Source: Pseudomonas graminis (GTDB lineage Bacteria; Pseudomonadota; Gammaproteobacteria; Pseudomonadales; Pseudomonadaceae). Taken from it: a DNA stretch of 64,000 nt. The notes beneath the pieces are model-generated. The model had not been told where the DNA came from. It worked only from the letters and a program-made list of their open reading frames with translations, and did not search any database. How positions within the stretch are numbered: the first letter of the stretch is position 1; each line of letters starts with the position of its first letter. This document shows, in pieces, positions 2,570-20,519 of the stretch. The stretch lies in the NCBI RefSeq assembly GCF_013201545.1, contig NZ_CP053746.1, forward strand, positions 5,036,501 to 5,100,500. The letters run 5' to 3'. The translations under genes were made by a program, and so were the position numbers.

Positions 2570-3565
2570 TCACACCCACCGCAACCGCTTGAACAACCAC
2601 GTCTGGCCGACGGCCACGATGAGCATCAAGCCGCAGGCGTACAGAAATCCATAGGGATTTTCCGACCCGGGGATACCCCCCACGTTGATGCCCAGCAAAC
2701 CTGTCAGGAAGGTCATCGGCAGGAAGATGCCGGTGATGACCCCAAACCGATACATGGTCCTGTTCATCCGCTCGTTGAGGCGCCTGTCTTCAGCCTCAAG
2801 CACCAGCCCCACTCGCTCTCGGGTCAATTCCAGCTCTTCAAGGTAACGCGTCAGGCTGTTGTTCAATTCGTTCCAGTAATCCGCATCGTCCTCCACGAAC
2901 CACGGCATCTTGCTGCGCGTCAGCTGGGCGTAGAGTTCGCGCTGAGGCGCCAGAAACCGACGCAGTCCCGCCGCTCGTCTGCGGATATGCACCATATTGC
3001 CGTGCTCGGGCAGATACCGCTCGTCGGCATCTATGCGTTCCTCCATGTCATCGACCAGTTCGGTCAGCTCGCTGACCACGGCCTGAACCTTGTCAGTCAG
3101 AAACTGGGCCAGATACAGCAGCAGCTCCGACGCCGTTTTCGGTCCCTTTCCTTCATTCAATGACGAGATCAGCTCATCGGTTGCCCGCAGCGAGCGCAGG
3201 CGCAATGAGATAACGCGCTGGGCGGCGGCAAAAATGCGCACCGAAACCATGTCTTCCGGCTCGGCACCCGGGTTCAGGTTGATCCCGCGCAGGAACAGCA
3301 GCAATTCGTTGTCCGGCAAAGCCAGCAGCCGCGGCCGGGTGTTCTCTTCCAGCATCAGGTCGCAGACGAACTCGCTCAGACCGCTGGTCTTGCGCAACCA
3401 CGTCTGGGTCTGCGGATGGCTGCGGTCCCAGTGGAGCCACACGCTTTCGTGGGGCTCCAGCTGCAGGCCATCCAGTGCAGTTCGGGGGATTGAACGCGCC
3501 CCGCCCTTCCCGTCCAACACGAGGGCATGAACCAGCCCCCACTGCGCGTTTGTTTCGTCGAACAT
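2570..3565 (-). CDS. cmaX: CmaX, CorA/ZntB-type metal ion transporter
   Basis: Protein of 331 residues with the CorA superfamily plan. A long cytoplasmic N-terminal domain rich in acidic helices (ELTELVDDMEERIDADERYL, then LEELELTRERVGLVLEAEDR) is followed by two C-terminal membrane helices (VITGIFLPMTFLTGLLG and GFLYACGLMLIVAVGQTWLF). The loop motif GINVGGIPG replaces the GMN of CorA and is the ZntB-type variant, so Zn2+ or a similar divalent ion is more likely than Mg2+. This is the gene named cmaX in P. aeruginosa, first of the cmaX-crfX-cmpX-sigX-oprF set. The transported ion is inferred. Confidence 0.9.
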   Translation of the reverse strand: MFDETNAQWGLVHALVLDGKGGARSIPRTALDGLQLEPHESVWLHWDRSHPQTQTWLRKTSGLSEFVCDLMLEENTRPRLLALPDNELLLFLRGINLNPGAEPEDMVSVRIFAAAQRVISLRLRSLRATDELISSLNEGKGPKTASELLLYLAQFLTDKVQAVVSELTELVDDMEERIDADERYLPEHGNMVHIRRRAAGLRRFLAPQRELYAQLTRSKMPWFVEDDADYWNELNNSLTRYLEELELTRERVGLVLEAEDRRLNERMNRTMYRFGVITGIFLPMTFLTGLLGINVGGIPGSENPYGFLYACGLMLIVAVGQTWLFKRLRWV

Positions 3566-3616
3566 TCGTGTCCTTGCTGAGTGAATGGCTACCAGCGTGA
3601 AGAGGGATAAAACCGA

Positions 3617-4105
3617 TCAGTCCGGCATCTTCAGTGCGCTGGGCGAAACGATGATTCCGTTGTTGTCGGCATAGATGAATTCGCCCGGCTTGAACGTCAC
3701 ACCGCCGAAGGTCACCACCTTGTTCAGGTCACCGAGGCCACGCTTTTCGGTCTTGAGCGGGTGACTGGCCAATGCCTGCACACCCAAGTCGGTCTGTGCC
3801 AATACATCGACGTCGCGGACGCAGCCGAAGATCACCATGCCCTCCCAACCGTTCTTCGCTGCTTTTTCGGCAATCATGTCGCCCAGCAATGCGCAACGCA
3901 GCGAGCCTCCGCCGTCCACGACCAATACTTTTCCGTGACCAGGCTGTTCGGCCTGCTCGCGCACCAGCGAATTGTCTTCGAAGCACTTGAGCGTGACGAT
4001 CTCGCCGCCAAATGAATCACGGCCACCAAAGTTGCTGAACATCGGCTCCACCACCTGAACCCGCTCAGGGTAGGCGTCGCACAAGTCCGGGGTGATGTAA
4101 TGCAT
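3617..4105 (-). CDS. rraA: RraA, regulator of ribonuclease E activity / RraA-like aldolase fold
   Basis: Protein of 162 residues of the RraA family, which in E. coli binds RNase E and inhibits it; some members are 4-hydroxy-4-methyl-2-oxoglutarate aldolases. Visible family signatures are the start ([20 protein letters not shown]), the central [20 protein letters not shown] and [10 protein letters not shown], and the end [13 protein letters not shown]. Length is standard. The gene is monocistronic in appearance, 51 bases downstream of the cmaX start on the same strand. Regulator rather than aldolase function is assumed from family usage in Pseudomonas. Confidence 0.9.
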
Positions 4106-4325
4106 GGGTAACTCCTGTCAGGAAAGCTCTGTGATGGGGGAAAACAACTACAAGGATAGACGGCCTGCGTCAACGGCCGACGCTTCAACGGGCTGCATCC
4201 TTATATAGCACCTCACACAGAACACACATCTGACCAACGAGTCGCCACCTGCCGTTCGGCCCCGGTGATGAGAATGTGTGCAGCTTAGCGACAAGTCGGC
4301 GCCCAAGGAATGGCTGAAACCGTGA

Positions 4326-5321
4326 CTATGACGGAGTTGCCATCATGTTCAGCGTTGATTCAGCCTCTTCTACAGCCACATGACGGTTCAGCCAGTCCGC
4401 TACGCGCGGCCACACCTGGGTTTGCGCGGCTTTGCTGACCAGCATCGGCACGTGGCCGAAGTCTTCGCTGAAGCCCTGTTCGCGGCCCAGGACGAGAAAC
4501 GTCTTGTCTTCGCTGCCGAACCGCTCGAAGAGCTCGCGGCACGCCCATTCCGGATCCTGATGGTCGCCAGCGCCAGCCACGCACAGCAGCGGGACCGTCA
4601 CCTGTTGCAGCCCGGCCCACCAGTCCTCCTTCTTGTGCCCGAAGCCGCCGAACAGGCCATGCCAGCGCATGCTTTCCAGCAGGACGCCCATGGGCTCGTC
4701 TTCCGGGCCGCGCTTGAAGCGGGGGCCTGACACGTGCTCGAAGCGTTTGAGCAGCAGCCGTGCAGCCCATTGCAGCGGCGGCACTTTCAGCGGCCAGTGG
4801 CTGCGGGTGACCTGACTGCCGAACAGCGCCACCGAGGCCGCATCGTCCGCCGTCAGGTACTGCCCGCCGAATGCTGCGGCCAGGGTCGTGCCGCCCAGGG
4901 AGTGGCCGATCCAGTGGGGCGCCTCGCCGGTCTGCTCGCGCACGAACGCCGCGATGGCCGGCAGATCAAAGCGTGCGTAATCGGCCACGCAATTGGTTTT
5001 GTACGCACTGTTGCGCGCCGACAGGCCGTGACCGCGCATTTCCGGGATCCACACATCGAACCCGGCGCGGGCCAGATACGCGCCCAGGCCGATGCCCTTG
5101 GGCGAGTACCAGAAGCGCCGATTGGAAAAGCTGCCGTGCAGCAGAACCACCGGCACGCCTCGGGCATCCGGCGCAGCCACAAGACCCAGCCGGGTGACGG
5201 CGATTTCGACAGTGAAATCCGGGCTGTTGCCGGGCTTCAAACGATAGACGTCCTCGGTCAGGTCGCCACGACGCTCGGCACTGATCAGGGCCACGGGAAA
5301 GAGATGACTGCTGCTTTGCAT
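4326..5321 (-). CDS. Alpha/beta hydrolase
   Basis: Alpha/beta-hydrolase fold enzyme of about 331 residues. The oxyanion-hole motif VVLLHGSFSNRRFW is followed by a nucleophile elbow GHSLGG (APHWIGHSLGGTTLAAAF), an acid region (VAGAGDHQDPEW) and a likely catalytic His in EDFGHVPML. The frame opens at 5414, but the ATG at 5321 (MQSSSHLFPVALISAERRGD) avoids an unlikely Cys/Pro-rich extension; the true start is not certain. The substrate is unknown. It sits between ppsA and rraA on the same strand, separated from ppsA by a terminator, the same order as in P. aeruginosa. Confidence 0.85.
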   Translation of the reverse strand: MQSSSHLFPVALISAERRGDLTEDVYRLKPGNSPDFTVEIAVTRLGLVAAPDARGVPVVLLHGSFSNRRFWYSPKGIGLGAYLARAGFDVWIPEMRGHGLSARNSAYKTNCVADYARFDLPAIAAFVREQTGEAPHWIGHSLGGTTLAAAFGGQYLTADDAASVALFGSQVTRSHWPLKVPPLQWAARLLLKRFEHVSGPRFKRGPEDEPMGVLLESMRWHGLFGGFGHKKEDWWAGLQQVTVPLLCVAGAGDHQDPEWACRELFERFGSEDKTFLVLGREQGFSEDFGHVPMLVSKAAQTQVWPRVADWLNRHVAVEEAESTLNMMATPS

Positions 5322-5412
5322 GGTGCTTTTGCTGGACGCTCTTGGTGGATGGGTAAATGGCGGTTGGGCGGGACAGCAGGTTGACGCTGCCAGCGCGCTG
5401 AAAATCACCCAC

Positions 5413-5443
5413 AAAAAAGGGCGGATTCGTTAAAAACCGCCCT
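5413..5443 (-). terminator. Rho-independent terminator of ppsA
   Basis: On the minus strand a 7-bp stem (AGGGCGG/CCGCCCT) is followed by six T residues. It lies about 50 bases after the ppsA stop codon and before the hydrolase gene, so it should separate the two transcripts. Confidence 0.8.
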
Positions 5444-5492
5444 GTCGGGAAACCGGCCCATGGAAACGGGCCGGCATCTTACTCGATATGGA

Positions 5493-7868
5493 TCAGGTCG
5501 GAGCGTCCTCTTCGGACAGGAAGAACCAGGTTTCCAGTACCGAATCAGGATTGAGGGACACGCTCTCGATGCCCTGCTCCATCAACCAGCGCGCCAGATC
5601 CGGGTGATCGGACGGGCCCTGGCCACAGATGCCGATGTACTTGCCGGCCTTGTTACAGGCCTGAATGGCGTAGGACAGCAGCTTCTTCACCGCAGGATTT
5701 CGCTCGTCGAACAGGTGAGCGATGATCCCGGAGTCGCGGTCCAGCCCCAGGGTCAGCTGGGTCAGGTCGTTGGAACCAATGGAGAAGCCGTCGAAGAATT
5801 CGAGGAATTCATCGGCCATCAGCGCGTTGGACGGTAGCTCGCACATCATGATCACGCGCAGACCGTTCTCGCCACGGGCCAGACCGTTTTCAGCGAGCAA
5901 ATCGATGACCTGACTTGCTTCGCCCAGGGTGCGGACGAACGGCACCATGATCTCGACGTTGGTCAGGCCCATCTCGTTGCGCACGCGCTTGAGGGCGCGG
6001 CATTCCAGCTCGAAGCAGTCGCGGAAATTTTCGCTGATGTACCGCGACGCGCCACGGAAGCCCAGCATCGGGTTTTCTTCTTCCGGCTCGTAGAGCTTGC
6101 CGCCGATGAGGTTGGCGTATTCGTTGGACTTGAAGTCCGACAGACGCACGATGACCTTCTTCGGCGAGAACGCCGCCGCCAGGGTGCTGATGCCTTCCAC
6201 CAGTTTCTCGACGTAGAAACCAACCGGATCGTCGTAACCGGCGATGCGCTTGTCGACGCTTTCCTTGATGTCCTGGGGCAGATTGGCGTAGTTCAGCAGC
6301 GCCTTGGGGTGCACGCCGATCATGCGGTTGATGATGAATTCCAGGCGCGCCAGGCCGATACCGGCGTTGGGCAACTGGGCGAAATCAAAGGCGCGATCCG
6401 GGTTGCCGACGTTCATCATGATTTTGAACGGCAGATCAGGCATGGCGTCGACAGAATTCTGCTTGATGTCGAATCCCAGTTCGCCCTCGAAGATGTAACC
6501 GGTGTCGCCCTCGGCGCAGGACACGGTGACGCCCTGACCTTCCTGCAACAGCTCGGTGGCGTTGCCGCAACCCACTACCGCCGGGATACCCAACTCGCGA
6601 GCGATGATCGCCGCGTGGCAAGTGCGTCCGCCACGGTTGGTGACGATGGCGCTGGCGCGTTTCATGACCGGTTCCCAGTCCGGGTCGGTCATGTCGGAGA
6701 CCAGCACGTCACCCGGCTGAACCTTGTCCATCTCGGACACGTCCTTGATGATCCGCACCTTGCCGGCGCCGATGCGCTGGCCGATGGCGCGGCCTTCCAC
6801 CAGAACGGTGCCCTTCTCTTTCAGCAGGTAGCGTTCCATGACATTGGACGAGGTGCGGCTTTTTACGGTTTCCGGCCGCGCCTGCACGATGTAGAGCTTG
6901 CCGTCATCGCCGTCTTTGGCCCACTCGATATCCATCGGGCACTGATAGTGCTTTTCGATGATCATCGCCTGGCGGGCCAGGTTGCTGACTTCCTCGTCGC
7001 TGAGGCAGAAACGCGCGCGGTCCGCCAGGTCGACGTCGATGGTCTTGACCGATTTACCGGCCTTGGCTTCTTCGCCGTAGATCATCTTGATCGCCTTGCT
7101 GCCCAGGTTGCGGCGCAGGATCGCCGGGCGACCGGCTTCAAGGGTGTTTTTGTGAACGTAGAATTCGTCCGGGTTGACCGCGCCCTGGACGACGGTCTCG
7201 CCCAGGCCATAGGCACCAGTGATGAAGACGACATCGCGGAAACCGGATTCGGTGTCCAGGGTGAACATGACGCCTGCGGTGCCGGTTTCAGAACGCACCA
7301 TGCGCTGCACGCCAGCGGACAGCGCCACCAGCTTGTGGTCGAACCCTTGGTGCACGCGGTAGGAAATGGCGCGGTCGTTGAACAGCGACGCAAACACCTC
7401 TTTCGCCGCGCGGATGACGTTTTCGACGCCACGAATGTTCAGGAAGGTTTCCTGCTGGCCGGCGAAGGAAGCGTCCGGCAAATCTTCTGCGGTGGCGGAA
7501 GAGCGCACGGCCACGGCGATGTCCGGGTTGCCCGCCGAGAGCTCGGCGAAGGCGGTGCGGATCTCGGCGTTGAGCTTTTCGGGGAATTCAGCCTCCATGA
7601 TCCACTGACGAATCTTGGCGCCGGTTCTGGCCAGCTCGTTGACGTCGTCGACATCCAGCGCGTCGAGGGCCTGATGGATCTGATCGTTCAGGCCACTCTG
7701 CTCGAGGAAATCACGGTAGGCCTGAGCGGTAGTGGCAAAGCCACCGGGGACGGACACGCCTGCACCCGCCAGGTTGCTGATCATCTCGCCGAGGGATGCG
7801 TTCTTGCCCCCCACGTGCTCAACATCATGTTTGCCGAGCTTATCGAGGGAAACTACGTACTCTACCAA
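5493..7868 (-). CDS. ppsA: Phosphoenolpyruvate synthase
   Basis: Converts pyruvate and ATP to PEP, AMP and phosphate in gluconeogenesis. The protein has 791 residues. An N-terminal ATP-grasp domain ([20 protein letters not shown], then [20 protein letters not shown]) is followed by the phosphohistidine domain with the [18 protein letters not shown] motif carrying the swivelling His. A C-terminal PEP/pyruvate barrel follows (GFRGASRYI, then [25 protein letters not shown]). The start is a TTG at 7868 with GGAGAG six bases upstream and gives the standard family N-terminus. It is divergent from ppsR, which controls its activity. A terminator at 5413-5443 ends the transcript. Confidence 0.97.
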
Positions 7869-12800: not shown

Positions 12801-13928
12801 TCAGCGCTGTTCGATGGGCACGAATTTGCGCTGTTCGACGCCGATGTATTCGGCGCTCGGTCGGATGATGCGGTTGTTGGCGCGCTGTTCAAACACGTGG
12901 GAAGCCCAACCGGTCAGGCGCGAGCAGACGAAGATCGGGGTGAACAGCTGGGTAGGGATGCCCATGAAGTGATACGCCGAGGCGTGGTAGAAATCGGCGT
13001 TGGGAAAGAGCTTCTTTTGCTCCCACATGGTCTTGTCGATGGCTTCGGACACCGGGAACAGCACGGTGTCGCCCACCTCCTCCGCGAGCTTTTTCGACCA
13101 GCCCTTGATCACCTCGTTACGCGGGTCGTTGTCCTTATAGATCGCGTGGCCGAAACCCATGATCTTGTCCTTGCGCTCCAGCATCGCCAACGTGCCCTTC
13201 GTCGCTTCTTCGGCGGAGGAAAACTTCTGGATCATCTCCATCGCCGCTTCATTGGCGCCGCCGTGCAACGGACCGCGCAAGGTGCCGATGGCGGCCGTGA
13301 TGCAGGAAAACAGGTCGGACAGGGTCGATGCGCAAACCCTGGCGGTGAAGGTCGAGGCGTTGAATTCGTGCTCGGCGTAAAGAATCAGCGAGACGTCCAT
13401 GACCTTGCGGTGCAGTTCGCTTGGCGCCTTGTCCAGCAGCAGTTTCAGGAAGTGCCCGGCGATGGACACTTCGTCGGTGACGCAGTCGATGCGCTTGCCT
13501 TCGTGGCTGAAGCGGTACCAATAGCACATGATCGCAGGGAACGCGGCGAGCAGCCGGTCGGTGGAATCGAGCTGCTGGGCGAAGCTGGCTTCGGGCTCGA
13601 GATTGCCGAGCATCGAGCAGCCGGTGCGCATCACGTCCATCGGGTGGGTGTCGGCGGGAATGCGTTCCAGCACTTCTTTTAGCGCTTGGGGCAGGTCACG
13701 CAGGCCCTGGAGTTTCTTCAGGTAGCCGTCGAGTTGCGCCTGGGTCGGCAGATCGCCGTACAGCAGCAGGTACGCGACTTCTTCAAAACGGGCGTCGGCG
13801 GCGAGTTCACGCACGTCATAGCCGCGGTAGGTCAATCCGGCGCCGGCCTGGCCGACGGTGGACAACGCGGTCTGCCCGGCCACCTGGCCTCGCAGGCCTG
13901 CGCCGCTCAATACTTTTGCTTCAGCCAT
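12801..13928 (-). CDS. prpC: PrpC, 2-methylcitrate synthase
   Basis: Condenses propionyl-CoA with oxaloacetate to 2-methylcitrate. It is a citrate-synthase-fold protein of 375 residues, the short length typical of PrpC. It starts with SGAGLRGQVAGQTALSTVG and YRGYDVRELA and carries the active-site motifs EHEFNASTFTARVCASTLSD, GPLHGGANEAA and GFGHAIYKDNDPR. It is in operon with prpB upstream and acnD downstream. The 186-base gap to prpB contains a REP pair. Confidence 0.96.
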   Translation of the reverse strand: MAEAKVLSGAGLRGQVAGQTALSTVGQAGAGLTYRGYDVRELAADARFEEVAYLLLYGDLPTQAQLDGYLKKLQGLRDLPQALKEVLERIPADTHPMDVMRTGCSMLGNLEPEASFAQQLDSTDRLLAAFPAIMCYWYRFSHEGKRIDCVTDEVSIAGHFLKLLLDKAPSELHRKVMDVSLILYAEHEFNASTFTARVCASTLSDLFSCITAAIGTLRGPLHGGANEAAMEMIQKFSSAEEATKGTLAMLERKDKIMGFGHAIYKDNDPRNEVIKGWSKKLAEEVGDTVLFPVSEAIDKTMWEQKKLFPNADFYHASAYHFMGIPTQLFTPIFVCSRLTGWASHVFEQRANNRIIRPSAEYIGVEQRKFVPIEQR

Positions 13929-14011
13929 TGCTGTCTCCAGTCTTGTAGTTGTGTGGGAATCGGCAATTCTTTTCTGTGTTTTACGCAGCCTTCACGCCAA
14001 CAAATAGGCCC

Positions 14012-14103
14012 GTGGGAGCGAGCTTGCTCGCGAAGGCAATGGTGCAATTAATAGAAGTGGTTCGAATGTACCGCCCTCTTCATGAGCAAGCTCACTCCCA
14101 CAG
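14012..14103. repeat. REP pair, GCGAGCAAGCTTGCTC class
   Basis: Two inverted copies: GTGGGAGCGAGCTTGCTCGC at 14013-14032 and the opposite-facing GAGCAAGCTCACTCCCACAG at 14084-14103. They lie between prpB and prpC, inside the operon, where such elements can stabilise or tune the upstream mRNA. The same class recurs at 26057 and 27028. Confidence 0.85.
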
Positions 14104-14114
14104 TGACTTCATTT

Positions 14115-15005
14115 CTAAGATTTCTTCTGCGCAAACAGCGCATCGAGCTTCTGCTCGAACGCGTGATAGTCAATGCGCTCGTACAACTCCATGCGCGTCT
14201 GCATGGTGTCGATGACATTCTTCTGGGTGCCGTCGCGACGAATCGCCGTGTAGACGTTTTCCGCGGCTTTGTTCATCGCCCGGAATGCCGACAGCGGGTA
14301 GAGCACCAGCGCCACTTCGGCGGACTTCAGCTCGTCGGTGGTGAACAGCGGCGTCGAGCCGAACTCGGTGATGTTGGCGAGGATCGGCGCCTTCACCCGC
14401 GAGGCAAACAGCTTGTACATCTCAAGCTCGGTGATCGCTTCCGGGAAGACCATGTCCGCGCCCGCTTCGATGCACGCAGCGGCTCGGTCCAGTGCTGATT
14501 CCAGCCCTTCCACCGCCAGCGCATCGGTGCGCGCCATGATCACGAAACTGTCGTCGGTTCGCGCGTCCACCGCCGCTTTGATGCGATCAACCATTTCCTG
14601 TTGCGAGACGATCTCCTTGCCGGGCCGGTGACCGCAGCGCTTGGCGCCGACCTGGTCTTCGATGTGCATTGCCGCCGCGCCGAACTTGATCATCGACTTC
14701 ACCGTACGCGCCACATTGAACGCCGAGGCACCGAAGCCGGTGTCGACGTCCACCAGCAGCGGCAGGTCGCAGACGTCGGTGATGCGGCGCACGTCAGTGA
14801 GCACGTCATCCAGGCCGGTGATGCCGAGGTCCGGCACACCCAGCGAACCCGCCGCGACACCGCCGCCGGACAGATAAATGGCCTTGAAGCCGGCCCGTTG
14901 CGCCAGCAGCGCGTGGTTGGCGTTAATCGTGCCGACCACCTGCAGCGGATGCTCGCTGGCGACAGCGTCACGGAAGCGTTGGCCGGGAGTGGTTCTTGTG
15001 GTCAT
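14115..15005 (-). CDS. prpB: PrpB, 2-methylisocitrate lyase
   Basis: Cleaves 2-methylisocitrate to pyruvate and succinate. It is a 296-residue member of the isocitrate lyase/PEP mutase family. Visible are the substrate-pocket [18 protein letters not shown], the metal-site [10 protein letters not shown] and the catalytic [10 protein letters not shown] (family K[KR]CGH). [18 protein letters not shown] is also standard. Its ATG overlaps the prpR stop codon by four bases (ATGA), so regulator and enzyme are co-translated. Confidence 0.97.
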
Positions 15006-15709
15006 TGTTCACCTCGGGCAGTTGCAGCGTGAAAGTGCTGCTCAATGTTGCGTTTGGACGCGGCAATGTGGCGGCGCATCAACAGCTCGGCCAGCTCGCC
15101 GTCACGTTCGGCGATGGCATCGAGAATACGGTGGTGCTCGGCGAACGCCTGGCGCGGGCGGTTGGGCGTCGTCGAGAACTGGATGCGGTACATGCGCACC
15201 AGTTGGTACAGGTCATCGCAGAGCATCTGGGTCAGCGTGCTGTTACGCGCGCCCTGGATGATCCGGTAATGAAAGTCGAAGTCGCCTTCCTGCTGGTAAT
15301 AGCCGACGCCGGCCTGAAAGGCGCTGTCGCATTCATGGGTTTCCAGCACGCGGCGCAGCTCGTTGACTTCTTCGACGGTCATGCGCTCGGCGGCCAGGCG
15401 ACAGGCCATGCCTTCGAGGGATTCGCGAATTTCGTACAGCTCGACCAGTTCGGCATGGCTCAGGGAAACCACGCGAGCGCCGACGTGGGGCACGCGCACC
15501 AACAGGCGCTGACCTTCAAGCCGGTGGATGGCTTCGCGCAAAGGCCCCCGGCTGATGCCGTAAGTGCGCGCCAGCTCAGGCTCGGAGATCTTGCTGCCGG
15601 GGGCGATGTCGCCCTTGACGATGGCCGCCTGAATACGACGAAAGACGTTCTCGGACAACGTCTCGGCGTCCAACGACGTAGCAGGCAGAGTTTCTGCGGC
15701 ATCCAACAT
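15002..15709 (-). CDS. prpR: PrpR, GntR/FCD-family regulator of the prp operon
   Basis: GntR-family repressor of 235 residues. An N-terminal winged helix ([20 protein letters not shown], then [20 protein letters not shown]) precedes an all-helical FCD effector domain ([54 protein letters not shown]). The ATG at 15709 has AAGGTG seven bases upstream and is preferred to the farther start at 15739. It is first in the operon. The palindrome at 15781-15792 upstream is the likely operator. Enteric PrpR is a different, sigma54-dependent protein. Confidence 0.92.
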
Positions 15710-15780
15710 TGTTGACACCTTATGATCGAATGCCAGCAAATCTAGCGAATGAAGGCCGTTCCGTCAAAGCTAAATGGCTG

Positions 15781-16006: not shown

Positions 16007-16585
16007 ATGAGCCGTCACCCCCCTCTCGTTCTCTTATCCCTGTACCTGCCAGGCTTCTTTCTGCCCGGACTTTTTCTTTCCGGGCTTTTTCTGCCCGGCC
16101 TGAGCCTGGCCGCTGAAAAGACGGTGTATGGCTTGAACGAGTACGCAGAACTGGCCGACATCGACCTGCAAGTCGCCGCCAAGCTGGACACCGGCGCGAA
16201 AACCGCCTCCCTGAGTGCCCGCGACATCAAGCGTTTCAAGCGCAATGGCGAATCCTGGGTGCGTTTTTACCTGGCCATCGACGATGCCCACGAACACCCC
16301 ATCGAACGCCCCCTGGCCCGGGTCAGCAGGATCAAGCGGCGTGCGGGGGATATCGACGCCGATGACGACAGGAAATACACCGCCCGCCCAGTCATCAGCC
16401 TGGATGTGTGCATGGGCAGCGCGCTGCGCACCATAGAAGTGAACTTGACCGACCGCAGCGCATTCCAATACCCGCTTCTGATTGGCTCCGAAGCCCTCAA
16501 GCACTTCGATGCGCTGGTCGACCCAAGCCTGAAATACGCAGCAGGCAAGCCTGCCTGCGTCACCGATGCTCAAACCGCAGAGTAA
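16007..16585 (+). CDS. Secreted RimB-like ATP-dependent zinc protease family protein (retropepsin-like)
   Basis: Family labelled ATP-dependent zinc protease (PF05618) but with a retropepsin-type core: VAAKLDTGAKTASLSARDI carries the DTGA catalytic-Asp motif, and PLLIGSEALKHFDALVDPS follows. The ATG at 16007 gives 192 residues with a long hydrophobic signal (about residues 5-35). Part of that signal is built from four 15-bp tandem repeats, so mature protein should be periplasmic. Longer upstream frames lack family similarity. The next gene starts four bases after the stop, and an ATP-grasp ligase follows that, so protease and ligase activities are coupled. Catalysis has not been shown from sequence. 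Confidence 0.85.
   Translation: MSRHPPLVLLSLYLPGFFLPGLFLSGLFLPGLSLAAEKTVYGLNEYAELADIDLQVAAKLDTGAKTASLSARDIKRFKRNGESWVRFYLAIDDAHEHPIERPLARVSRIKRRAGDIDADDDRKYTARPVISLDVCMGSALRTIEVNLTDRSAFQYPLLIGSEALKHFDALVDPSLKYAAGKPACVTDAQTAE
16049..16108 (+). repeat. Four 15-bp tandem repeats inside a signal peptide
   Basis: Units of 15 bases encode PGFFL, PGLFL, SGLFL and PGLSL in frame, lengthening the hydrophobic core of the secreted protease's signal sequence. Unit length is a multiple of three, so copy-number change keeps the frame. Confidence 0.85.
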
Positions 16586-16589
16586 CAAC

Positions 16590-18140
16590 ATGCGCTCTCT
16601 TAACCTCCATCTGAAAATCCTGATCGCGACCCTCGTCACGCTGGGCATCGCGATCACGGCTTATCAGATATTGGCACTCGGCATTCCGGTGACCGAAGAC
16701 GAAACCGACGACCTGTGGAACATCGACGCCAAGGTCGAGTTCATCGCCAACCCGAAGGACACGGTCAAGGTACAAATGTACGTGCCGCCCCTTTCGCGGG
16801 ATTACATCAGCCTCAACGAAAGCTTCATCTCCAACAACTATGGCGTGAACGTCAATCGCGCCGATGGCAATCGCAAGGTGACCTGGTCCGCACGCCGGGC
16901 CAACGGCAACCAGACGCTCTACTACCGGCTGGTATTGACCAAGCGCTACAGCGGCGAGAAAGCCAAGATCAAAGGCCCGATCTTCCGCGACAGCATCGTT
17001 GTGGAAGGCCCGGAAAAAATCGCCGCCGACGCACTGCTCGCGCCGATCCGGCAGCACTCGGCCGACGTCGAAACTTTCGTCAGCGAGGCCATCAAGCGCG
17101 TCAACAACCTGAGCGATGACAACGTCAAGCTGCTGCTGGCCGGTGATACGTCGGTGCAGAACAAGGCGCGGATCACCGAAACGCTGCTGTCCATAGCGCA
17201 CGTGCCGGTGGAGAAAGTCCACACGATCCGTCTGGTTGCCGATCAGCCGCAGTCACCCGAACTGTGGCTGCGCAGCTTCAATGGCAAGGACTGGCTGTAT
17301 TTCAATCCGGAAACCGGCGAGGCGGGCCTGCCCCAGGACCGACTGCTGTGGTGGACCGGCAACGACAACCTGATCTCCGTGGAGGGCGGCAAGAAGGCCA
17401 CTGTGAGCTTCAGCCTGAACAACAGCGAGATGAACGCCATTCGCCTGGCCAAACTGACCGACGAAAGCACCGACGCCGACTTCCTCGAATACTCGCTGTA
17501 CAGCTTGCCGCTGCAAACCCAGCAGACCTTCATGATCATGGTGATGATCCCGATCGGCGTGCTGGTGATCCTGATCCTGCGCAACCTCGTAGGCCTGCAG
17601 ACCCTCGGGACCTTCACCCCGGTCCTGATCGCGCTGGCGTTCCGCGAGACACAGCTGGGCTTCGGCATCGTGTTGTTCACCATCATCACCGCGCTGGGCC
17701 TGTCCCTGCGCTCGTACCTCGAACACCTCAAGCTGCAGATGCTGCCGAGGCTGTCGGTGGTGCTGACCTTCGTGGTGGTGCTGATTGCCGCCATCAGCCT
17801 GTTCAGCCACAAGCTGGGGCTTGAGCGCGGGCTGTCGGTGGCGCTGTTCCCGATGGTGATTCTGACCATGACCATCGAACGCCTGTCGATCACCTGGGAG
17901 GAGCGCGGCGGCGGCCATGCCATGAAAGTCGCCATCGGCACGCTGTTCGCGGCGTCCCTGGCGCACATCATCATGAGCATTCCGGAGTTCATCTACTTCG
18001 TGTTTACCTTCCCGGCCATCTTGCTGATTCTGGTGGGCTTCATGCTGGCGATGGGGCGTTATCGCGGGTATCGGCTGACCGAGCTGATTCGCTTCAAGGC
18101 CTTCCTCAAGGAAGACGCCGAGCGGGAAACCCCCAAATGA
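16590..18140 (+). CDS. Inactive transglutaminase-like protein with 7TM-type membrane domain
   Basis: Integral membrane protein of about 516 residues. It has an N-terminal anchor (LKILIATLVTLGIAITAYQI), a periplasmic region of about 300 residues resembling transglutaminase-associated domains, then about seven helices (FMIMVMIPIGVLVILILRNL through FPAILLILVGFMLAMG). I see no cysteine in the whole protein, so the thiol chemistry of a transglutaminase is impossible and a binding role is likely. The ATG at 16590 is preferred to one at 16566 because it avoids overlap and starts before the anchor. It is co-transcribed with the DTGA protease and with the ATP-grasp gene, with which it overlaps by four bases. 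Confidence 0.85.
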   Translation: MRSLNLHLKILIATLVTLGIAITAYQILALGIPVTEDETDDLWNIDAKVEFIANPKDTVKVQMYVPPLSRDYISLNESFISNNYGVNVNRADGNRKVTWSARRANGNQTLYYRLVLTKRYSGEKAKIKGPIFRDSIVVEGPEKIAADALLAPIRQHSADVETFVSEAIKRVNNLSDDNVKLLLAGDTSVQNKARITETLLSIAHVPVEKVHTIRLVADQPQSPELWLRSFNGKDWLYFNPETGEAGLPQDRLLWWTGNDNLISVEGGKKATVSFSLNNSEMNAIRLAKLTDESTDADFLEYSLYSLPLQTQQTFMIMVMIPIGVLVILILRNLVGLQTLGTFTPVLIALAFRETQLGFGIVLFTIITALGLSLRSYLEHLKLQMLPRLSVVLTFVVVLIAAISLFSHKLGLERGLSVALFPMVILTMTIERLSITWEERGGGHAMKVAIGTLFAASLAHIIMSIPEFIYFVFTFPAILLILVGFMLAMGRYRGYRLTELIRFKAFLKEDAERETPK

Positions 18141-19108
18141 TCGGCTGGTGGAAAACCTGGAAGGCGCTGGAAGCCAAAGGGATCATGGGCATCAACCGGC
18201 GTAACGCCGACTACGTGCTCAAGTACAACAAGCGCAGCCTCTACCCCATTGTGGATGACAAGATCATCACCAAGGAGCGGGCCATCGCCGCCGGCATTCA
18301 TGTGCCCGAGCTGTACGGGATCATTTCCACCGAAAAGGAAATCGACAAGCTCGACACGATCATTGGCGGGCGCAGTGATTTCGTCGTCAAGCCGGCCAAG
18401 GGCGCAGGCGGCGACGGCATCCTGGTGGTTGCCGACCGGTTCGAAGAGCGCTTCCGCACGGTCTCCGGGCGCATCATCAGCCACGACGAAATCGAGCATC
18501 AGATTTCCAGCATCCTCACCGGGCTGTATTCCCTGGGCGGCCACCGCGACCGGGCGCTGATCGAATACCGGGTCACGCCGGATCAGATTTTCAAGAGCAT
18601 CAGCTACGAGGGCGTCCCGGACATCCGCGTGATCGTGCTGATGGGTTATCCGGTGATGGCCATGCTGCGCCTGCCCACCCGGCAGTCTGGCGGAAAGGCC
18701 AACCTGCACCAGGGCGCCATCGGTGTCGGCGTCGATCTGGCCACTGGCCTGACGCTGCGCGGCACCTGGTTGAACAACATCATCAGCAAGCACCCCGACA
18801 CCACCAATGCGGTGGATGGCGTGCAACTGCCGAACTGGGACGGTTTCATGAAGCTTGCGGCAGAGTGCTACGAGCTGTGTGGCCTGGGTTATATCGGCGT
18901 GGACATGGTGCTGGATCAGGATCGCGGGCCGCTGATTCTGGAGCTCAACGCCCGGCCGGGGCTCAACATCCAGATCGCCAACGACTGCGGGCTGACTCAC
19001 CGCACGGTTGCCGTGGAGAAGCGGCTGGAAGAGCTGGCGGCGGAAGGTGTACACGAAAACCCGGAAGAGCGGGTCAAGTTTGCTCAGGGGTTGTTCGGGC
19101 ACGTTTGA
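18137..19108 (+). CDS. ATP-grasp alpha-L-glutamate ligase-like protein
   Basis: Cytoplasmic ATP-grasp enzyme of 323 residues, related to RimK-type amidoligases that attach glutamate or another amino acid to a peptide or metabolite amine. Nucleotide-binding VVKPAKGAGGDGILVV lies near residue 90 and the Mg-binding LILELNARPGLNIQIAN near residue 270; TPDQIFKSISYEGVPDIRV lies between. It overlaps the membrane gene upstream by ATGA. With the DTGA protease and the transglutaminase homologue it forms a three-gene set. The substrate is unknown. Confidence 0.88.
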   Translation: MIGWWKTWKALEAKGIMGINRRNADYVLKYNKRSLYPIVDDKIITKERAIAAGIHVPELYGIISTEKEIDKLDTIIGGRSDFVVKPAKGAGGDGILVVADRFEERFRTVSGRIISHDEIEHQISSILTGLYSLGGHRDRALIEYRVTPDQIFKSISYEGVPDIRVIVLMGYPVMAMLRLPTRQSGGKANLHQGAIGVGVDLATGLTLRGTWLNNIISKHPDTTNAVDGVQLPNWDGFMKLAAECYELCGLGYIGVDMVLDQDRGPLILELNARPGLNIQIANDCGLTHRTVAVEKRLEELAAEGVHENPEERVKFAQGLFGHV

Positions 19109-19167
19109 GTTTTTGTCTATTGATCTTGCGGATCGGTGATCCCCTAACAGATTGATGGCGAACATGC

Positions 19168-19358
19168 CGGCCTCTTCCCGGCTGAAGCCAGTCCTACAGG
19201 CACCGCGCGCATTTCGTAGGGCCGGCTGTAGCCGGGAAGGCATCATCCGTCACACCGCAAAATGGATGGCGCTCACACCGGCCCCTTCCCGGCTGAAGCC
19301 GGTCCCACTAGACCACCGCTCACATTCGTAGGACTGGCTTTAGCCGGGAAGACGTCAG
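19168..19358. repeat. Two REP pairs in the gap after the ATP-grasp gene
   Basis: The 391-base gap 19109-19499 holds four REP units in two inverted pairs: CTTCCCGGCTGAAGCC-type at about 19173 and 19284, and opposite-facing GGCTGTAGCCGGGAAG/GGCTTTAGCCGGGAAG at about 19222 and 19335. The rest of the gap is leader of the uptake operon. A TATAGT at 19465-19470 could be a -10 element but has no convincing -35. Confidence 0.85.
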
Positions 19359-19499
19359 TCGTCATTCCGCGAAACCCGAGCCGAACATCACCGCCGCTCC
19401 CCCCGATAAATGAAGATTCACCCCATGCGGCATTCCGTCCCTAGAGAAGCCTCGCCCATCGCTGTATAGTTTTTTACATACCGAAACAATGAGCAACAG

Positions 19500-20519
19500 A
19501 TGTCCTCTCCCAGGCTGCACCCCACTCTGTTACTCAGCCTCCTGGCCTTGATCGCAACGGCCATCTGCGCGCTGTTGCTGGGTCGCTATCAAATCTCAAT
19601 CCACGAATTCCTGATGTTCATCGCAACGATGCTGGGCATCAGCGACATGCCCGCCCACCGCTACGACCTGCTCCACAGCCTGATCATCGAGGCGCGCCTG
19701 CCTCGGGTCATTGCCGCGGTACTGGTGGGCGCCGGGCTATCGGTCTCGGGCGCGGCGTATCAGGGCGTGTTCCGCAATCCGCTGGTGTCGCCGGGCTAGC
19801 TGGGGGTGTTGAGCGGCTGCGCGTTCGGCGCTGCGCTGGGGATCATCTGGCACCTGCCGCCCCTGGCCATTGCGCTGGTGGCGTGCGTGACTGGGCTCAT
19901 CGCCGTGGCGGTCGGTCTTGGCATCGCCCACATGTTCCAGACCCGCTCCATCCTGCTGCTGGTGCTCGGCGGTATCGTAGCGAACGCCCTCTTCACCTCG
20001 CTGCTGTCCATCGCCCAATACGTGGCCGATCCGGTCGATCAGTTGCCAAGCATCGTCTACTGGCTGCTCGGCAGCCTCAGCGCCGTCGACGTGCAGGCGT
20101 TGTGGATCATCGGGCCGATTCTGGCCGTGGCCATCGTGCTGTTGTGCCTGACCGGCCGCGCCATCGATGCGCTGTCCTTGAGTGATGACGAGGCGCTGAG
20201 CCTGGGCGTGCCGGTCGAGCAGATCCGTGGCGGCCTAATCGTGCTGACCACGCTGATCTGCGCACTCACTGTGAGTCTGGCGGGCATGGTCGGCTGGATC
20301 GGTCTGTTGATTCCGCACCTGGCGCGGCTGCTGGTCGGCCCCGGCAATTCACGCTTGCTGCCCCTCAGCGCCTGCCTGGGCGGGATCTTCCTGCTGGCGG
20401 CTGACGGCGTCGCTCGCAGCGTGTCGGCGGGCGAAATTCCCCTCGGCATCATCACCGAACTGTTCGGCGCGATCGCCTTTGTGCTGGTGCTGCATCGCGT
20501 GCGCAAGGGCTGGCTATGA
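19500..20519 (+). pseudogene. FecCD-type ABC permease interrupted by an in-frame TAG
   Basis: Inner-membrane permease of the BtuC/FecCD family (iron-siderophore, haem or B12 uptake). Residues before and after position 100 read as one continuous family member of about 339 residues: SGAAYQGVFRNPLVSPG, then TAG at 19797-19799, then LGVLSGCAFGAALGII. The homologous motif is normally NPLxxPGxLGVSSGA, with a hydrophobic residue where the TAG stands. No frameshift is present. A single base change from TTG would explain it. The downstream part retains about seven membrane helices and the coupling region SLGVPVEQIRGG. It is non-functional unless the codon is suppressed or is a sequencing error. The stop overlaps the ATPase start by ATGA. 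Confidence 0.9.

Follow-up and report, generated by a model that had tools for sequence, protein, structure and literature searches.

The rloABC operon of Pseudomonas graminis and its relatives: a constant ligase and membrane protein pair with a varying protease side

Gene content and family assignment of the locus

Three tightly packed genes of Pseudomonas graminis are the subject of this analysis. They lie within a stretch of 64,000 nucleotides (contig NZ_CP053746.1, positions 5,036,501 to 5,100,500; in the following referred to as the window) of a genome that consists of a single 5.52-Mb contig. As judged from profile matches, the three genes are the rloABC operon, whose families were published in 2025 for Pseudomonas aeruginosa, and the locus is already known. 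The only paper we found that treats RloA, RloB and RloC together is that of Lormand et al. (2025; PMC12239564), and the opinion of a previous sequence-only reading of this DNA that the system is under-described has to be abandoned, as rloABC has been named and published.

All three genes are located on the plus strand and run from an ATG to a stop codon. The first gene, rloA (16007–16585), encodes a putative secreted retropepsin-like aspartic protease of 192 amino acids with the catalytic D61 and the cysteines Cys135 and Cys184, rloB (16590–18140) a predicted inner-membrane protein of 516 amino acids and rloC (18137–19108) a predicted cytoplasmic ATP-grasp ligase of 323 amino acids. The coordinates of the open reading frames (ORFs) confirmed the tight packing described before: rloA and rloB are separated by 4 nucleotides (16586–16589), and rloB and rloC share an ATGA overlap.

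Pfam profile searches assigned protein A to PF05618 (155.7 bits), protein B to PF14402 (326.9 bits) and PF14400 (157.1 bits) and protein C to PF14397 (325.6 bits). The three proteins also scored above the cut-offs of NCBIfam models, namely NF052262 for RloA1 (335.6 versus 280 bits), the RloB model (1057.8 versus 900 bits) and TIGR02291 (568.4 versus 314.2 bits), which is named “alpha-L-glutamate ligase-like protein”; a model named RloC was not among the matches of the window proteins in the NCBIfam scan. In comparison with RloABC of P. aeruginosa PA14, the window operon has the same gene order, the same three families and the same catalytic and poly-Glu contact residues.

RloA and the secreted paralogues

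Read directly from the translation, RloA begins with a hydrophobic leader that ends in SLAA. Downstream of it follows the motif KLDTGAKT with the catalytic aspartate at residue 61, and Cys135 and Cys184 form the conserved cysteine pair of the secreted type. Together with the PF05618 match, leader and Asp61 support the earlier proposal of a retropepsin-like protease with a leader. The best PDB match is 9g58_A (E 3.4e-85 across residues 35–192), whose deposited title reads putative zinc protease-domain protein; we assume that it is the RloA of P. fluorescens treated in PMC12239564. The numbering of the window protein exceeds that of PA14 RloA by 13, so that D48 becomes D61 and K46, R92, R114 and R137 become K59, R105, R127 and R150. 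Across the 88 aligned family members the D, G and A of the DTGA motif are invariant and the T is kept in 85, and the poly-Glu contacts R114 and R137 (PA14 numbering) are likewise present in every sequence. By the curated model RloA is no RimB (81.9 bits, cut-off 200). At the DNA level, the repetitive hydrophobic leader is encoded by three 14-nucleotide repeats with a spacing of 15 nucleotides (window positions 16058–16101, LPGFFLPGLFLSGLFLPGLSL).

The PF05618 search of the source genome yielded three genes, namely rloA, one encoding a secreted RloA2 (297.6 bits, cut-off 250) and one encoding a cytoplasmic RimB (296.2 bits, cut-off 200). The latter adjoins a RimK gene (476.6 bits, cut-off 331), and a gene beside this rimB-rimK pair resembles the EAL type by eye. 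PA14 possesses three secreted paralogues, RloA, RloA2 and RloA3, whereas the PF05618 search of the source genome found only two, RloA and RloA2, in addition to RimB, and no third secreted one.

RloB and RloC

RloB combines a predicted periplasmic, inactive transglutaminase domain (residues ~40–282) with a C-terminal seven-transmembrane (7TM) domain, the PF14402 match covering residues 260–505. The translation contains no cysteine, and the catalytic columns of the transglutaminase domain are occupied by V/E/N instead of Cys-His-Asp. The description of a multi-pass membrane protein with a cysteine-free, inactive transglutaminase region therefore holds. In this respect RloB differs from transglutaminase-like cysteine peptidases and TgpA of P. 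aeruginosa.

RloC had been predicted to be a RimK-like ATP-grasp ligase, in agreement with the PF14397 and TIGR02291 matches and with a structure comparison in which the predicted model of RloC was closest in fold to amino-acid ligases. The score to the Pfam RimK family is weak (38.7 bits), and that to the NCBIfam RimK model is below the cut-off (21.4 versus 331 bits). A related protease and a same-fold ATP-grasp ligase, like RloA and RloC, are also the components of the RimA-RimB-RimK system for glutamylation of ribosomal protein S6, which differs in that RimB is leaderless and a membrane partner is absent; RloC, in turn, lacks the N-terminal domain of RimK.

Conservation of the operon

The distribution of the families was analyzed in 299 genomes from the phylum, which were searched with PF14402, TIGR02291 and PF05618. 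PF14402 matched in 48 genomes, PF05618 in 98 and TIGR02291 in 79, of which 48 scored at least 250 bits and the next best only 80.7 bits. The 48 genomes with a strong TIGR02291 match, taken as full-length RloC, and the 48 RloB genomes are identical, and 44 of them also contain PF05618 (hypergeometric chance 1e-20, a value whose significance is overstated since the genomes are related). In addition, a search with RloB yielded at least 587 stretches, of which 570 were relatives; the best 80 loci were kept. Among these, rloB and rloC are adjacent in all 80, and rloA lies immediately before them in 77. Pseudomonas or Stutzerimonas account for 34 of the best 80 loci, which also include Nitrospirales, Desulfobacteraceae, Dadabacteria and Oligoflexia, and among the 25 largest clusters of neighboring genes the other families each occur in at most six non-Pseudomonas loci. 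A lack of conserved co-occurrence had been named as refuting the sequence-only reading; the identical genome sets and the adjacency of the three genes show that co-occurrence is conserved.

RloB proteins with an intact triad

The catalytic columns were compared in an alignment of 125 RloB-family ORFs from the fetched loci, from which one known duplicate had been dropped. The C/H/D triad is intact in five proteins (hereafter live-domain RloB), all from one class, which we guess to be the Zetaproteobacteria. It is not intact in the remaining 120, including two (loci L054 and L055) without the whole domain. Two live-domain proteins were scanned, and both matched the active-enzyme family PF01841 (E 6.5e-15 and 1.6e-16). 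A secreted retropepsin was found in none of the five live-domain genomes (completeness 88–98%, one with 9% contamination). Four of them are the four PF14402 genomes of the 299-genome sample in which no PF05618 gene was found, and the fifth (G096) has a single one, which is leaderless and adjoins a rimK-like gene by eye.

A strict rule according to which a missing adjacent rloA means a live transglutaminase domain was rejected, as four dead-domain loci (L025, L083, L129 and L082) also have no adjacent rloA. The genomes of L025 and L083 encode a leader-bearing retropepsin elsewhere (leader by eye), and the sole retropepsin found in the genome of L129 is RimB-like. For L082, where the contig begins within rloB, no retropepsin was found in the incomplete 2.4-Mb assembly.

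When a tree was built from the 7TM domain, the five live-domain proteins grouped together, as did the two domain-less proteins, each group on a branch of its own with full support; the branches are very long (3.4 and 6.5 changes per column), and with a midpoint root the tree does not give the direction of change. We infer that the transglutaminase domain lost its activity and did not gain it, because the return of a complete triad is improbable.

Neighboring genes in relatives

The live-domain operons differ in their surroundings. A tetratricopeptide repeat (TPR) gene follows rloC in all five (two identified by Pfam, the rest by clustering), and in four of them the next gene encodes an exported protein of barrel-like appearance; the fifth contig stops inside the TPR gene. 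Four of the five also have a PepSY-like membrane gene before rloB (one scanned, with a sub-threshold match). Both domain-less loci encode an exported barrel-like protein upstream of the 7TM gene. In one of these, L054, a rim and an rlo system are immediate neighbors: within 2674–6919, a RimB-like gene and rimK (the latter scanned) are followed without interruption by the barrel-like gene, the 7TM-only rloB and rloC. Four Magnetococcales-type loci, L059, L060, L063 and L064 (identical to L065), have a glutathione-synthetase-like ATP-grasp gene before rloA (that of L064 was scanned), and in L059 and L060, both scanned, a gene for a MATCAP-type carboxypeptidase lies before the ATP-grasp gene. L054 and the Magnetococcales-type clusters point to the making and trimming of peptide bonds.

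Other features of the window

Upstream of rloA, at 12801–15739 on the minus strand, ORFs resemble by eye methylcitrate-cycle genes (citrate-synthase type and phosphoenolpyruvate-mutase type) and a GntR-type regulator; similar neighbors are also seen at Pseudomonas loci and at L129. On the other side of the operon, a FecCD-type permease gene (by eye; 19500–20519, plus strand) contains a single in-frame stop after 99 codons and is otherwise open, and it may be a pseudogene or reflect a sequence error. It is adjoined by ORFs that resemble an ATP-binding cassette (ABC) ATPase and a TonB-dependent receptor (by eye). Between rloC and the permease gene, at 19151–19374, there are two pairs of ~50-nucleotide repeats, which also form inverted pairs of 24–25 nucleotides and resemble elements of the repetitive extragenic palindromic (REP) type.

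Discussion

In P. aeruginosa PA14, RloA, RloA2 and RloA3 are three redundant secreted proteases, and the triple protease mutant does not grow on LB without salt (PMC12239564). The published phenotype is a sensitivity to low osmolarity and not the salt stress that the sequence-only reading had considered relevant. Additional deletion of rloB or rloC restores salt-free growth fully and the other phenotypes partly (PMC12239564). According to these genetics, RloBC makes or moves what RloA removes or counters. The earlier picture of a product made inside and trimmed outside fits this rescue, and the arrangement of a ligase inside, a protease outside and a membrane partner between them agrees with the same paper. 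As the P. aeruginosa proteases are redundant and the P. graminis genome encodes a second secreted protease, RloA2, the deletion of a single protease would mislead; a double deletion of the secreted proteases should expose the phenotype here if the redundancy of PA14 holds.

The best explanation as a whole, which in our judgment is about evenly balanced between right and wrong, is an acidic, likely glutamyl, peptide that is made by RloC, passed by RloB and cut by RloA. RloC, with its RimK/ArgX/cyanophycin-synthetase fold, would link amino acids, of which glutamate is the most likely, to form an acidic peptide or tag, and the membrane domain of RloB would carry or present this product across the inner membrane. 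In the periplasm the dead transglutaminase domain may bind the product, and RloA, as a dimeric aspartic protease, would cut it. If the secreted retropepsins are missing, the product would accumulate and disturb the envelope at low osmolarity; if RloB or RloC is missing, no product would be formed and the defect would be gone. We infer that the product is glutamyl, because of the in vitro preference of RloA, its conserved basic cleft and the fold of RloC, and that RloB exports it. In vitro, RloA cleaves stretches of eight or ten consecutive Glu and not of six or fewer, and the catalytic Asp48 is required in vivo: the Asp mutant, which had been proposed as a check of the sequence-only reading, fails to complement (PMC12239564). 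Furthermore, PMC11957791 describes RimK-made poly-alpha-L-glutamate in Pseudomonas cells, and links RimK overexpression to an antibiotic sensitivity that requires RimB but does not depend on the modification of ribosomes.

The live-domain operons extend this explanation. RloBC stays constant and the protease side varies between a live domain and RloA, which suggests that RloC builds and RloB passes an acidic peptide that needs periplasmic trimming; construction by RloC, passage by RloB and trimming by a periplasmic peptidase is the simplest account. It is possible, although we would rather doubt it at present, that RloB-RloC is a conserved synthesis-export core for an acidic, probably alpha-glutamyl, peptide which exists in three builds. 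One build would consist of a live-domain RloB in the absence of a secreted retropepsin, with the TPR protein and an outer-membrane-barrel-like protein encoded downstream, a second of a dead-domain RloB with trimming moved to the retropepsin RloA, and a third of a 7TM-only RloB accompanied by RloC and a barrel-like protein. The dead domain would then be a relic of the original trimmer, whose task has been out-sourced to RloA. TPR and barrel proteins are a frequent outer part of polymer-export machines, and the export is proposed for this reason. Among the papers listed, we found none on live-domain RloB or its TPR and barrel neighbors; subscription papers were mostly outside this search, and parts may be in print.

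Several points weigh against a peptide made by RloC and exported by RloB. What speaks for the term barrel-like is limited to a leader, an aromatic residue at the C-terminus of five of six proteins and sub-threshold Pfam matches (five scanned). The single rloB and rloC mutants of PA14 have defects of their own in ampicillin sensitivity and cell shape (PMC12239564), so RloBC is not merely the source of a poison. The pre-ATP-grasp domain of RimK (PF18030) is absent from RloC at E ≤1 and was found in a scanned RimK, and a demonstration of an activity or product of RloC was not found in the sources consulted. For the 7TM domain of RloB we found no convincing structural match, and a homology to PgsC/CapC is not supported by profile comparisons.

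PgsB-PgsC resembles RloC and RloB as a ligase with a small polytopic membrane protein, and PgsC and RloB look alike by eye in a short motif of membrane helix two. It differs in that PgsB is a Mur-type ligase whereas RloC is an ATP-grasp enzyme. None of 38 RloB 7TM segments matched PF14102 (hmmscan, E ≤10). In hhalign comparisons with units of tandem CapC proteins and with a single PgsC-like protein encoded at a pgsBC-like locus, the 7TM domain scored 12–22 (best E 0.01), compared to 10–16 with one side reversed; in a background of only four families, an unrelated one with membrane-like stretches reached 21.1. The same method detected CapC versus CapC at Prob 73 and 79, with one weaker pair at 5.8. 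CapC relatives were found neither in viral contigs nor, by sequence with a single CapC query, in the PDB, nor in 13 RloB-bearing genomes searched, and no PF14102 gene was found in the source genome. Nor did we find a paper that treats an inactive transglutaminase together with PgsC. As a separate observation, L045 (3487–6723), L046 (748–3996) and L171 encode proteins of ~1,080 amino acids in which two CapC (PF14102) domains are arranged in tandem and the C-terminal part gave no Pfam match above cut-off (one scanned); large proteins of unknown family are encoded beside them. Within one class, 5 of 78 genomes have such tandem CapC proteins, and so does one genome of another group.

Instead of a free polymer, RloC and RloB might attach a glutamate tag to an envelope acceptor (a protein, a lipid or the peptidoglycan stem) that RloA removes, in analogy to RimK and RimB on S6. 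We regard this as a tentative alternative that is probably incorrect. An over-tagged acceptor would give a cell-wall phenotype, and cell-shape and beta-lactam phenotypes are indeed seen in the triple protease mutant; RloA also cuts poly-Glu at internal and C-terminal positions of test proteins (PMC12239564), and RimB removes Glu from RpsF (PMC11957791). Nevertheless, no genome-encoded periplasmic or extracellular protein has eight or more consecutive Glu (PMC12239564), a modified acceptor is not known, and a cytoplasmic ligase could reach a periplasmic acceptor only if this was modified before export. The TPR and barrel-like neighbors of one class also suit exported material better.

A role of RloB mainly as a sensor, whose periplasmic domain detects a signal from the cell wall or a peptide and informs RloC acting on a cytoplasmic target while RloA tunes the signal, would be in line with the loss of the triad in the great majority of RloB proteins, as expected of a binding domain, and with the broad phenotypes reported, which comprise biofilm, shape and drug sensitivity (PMC12239564). 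We consider it unlikely, since sensing by the transglutaminase domain cannot be the common core of a family with five intact triads and two domain-less members, and since the rescue by deletion of rloB or rloC is explained most simply by a product pathway. Even more improbable seems a product unrelated to glutamate, in which case poly-Glu cleavage would be a side activity retained from RimB-type ancestors. The cleavage was assayed on designed substrates and on RpsF bearing eight Glu (PMC12239564), and Pfam names the RloC family “sugar-transfer associated”, but the exchanges R114A and R137A, at the invariant contact residues, weaken cleavage and fail to rescue in vivo (PMC12239564), and the fold of RloC is nearest to amino-acid ligases.

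Mutations in rloA, rloB or rloC have been recovered repeatedly when biofilm or matrix, susceptibility to drugs and the production of vesicles were screened: RloB-type mutants of Shewanella vesiculosa hyper-vesiculate (PMC12096838), suppressor insertions fall in PA1766-PA1768 (PMC7314104), and the same genes acquire parallel mutations under antibiotic selection (PMC10127599). If the product of RloBC is a glutamyl peptide trimmed by RloA, the live-domain homologues would provide a second, independent enzyme that is expected to act on the same substrate.

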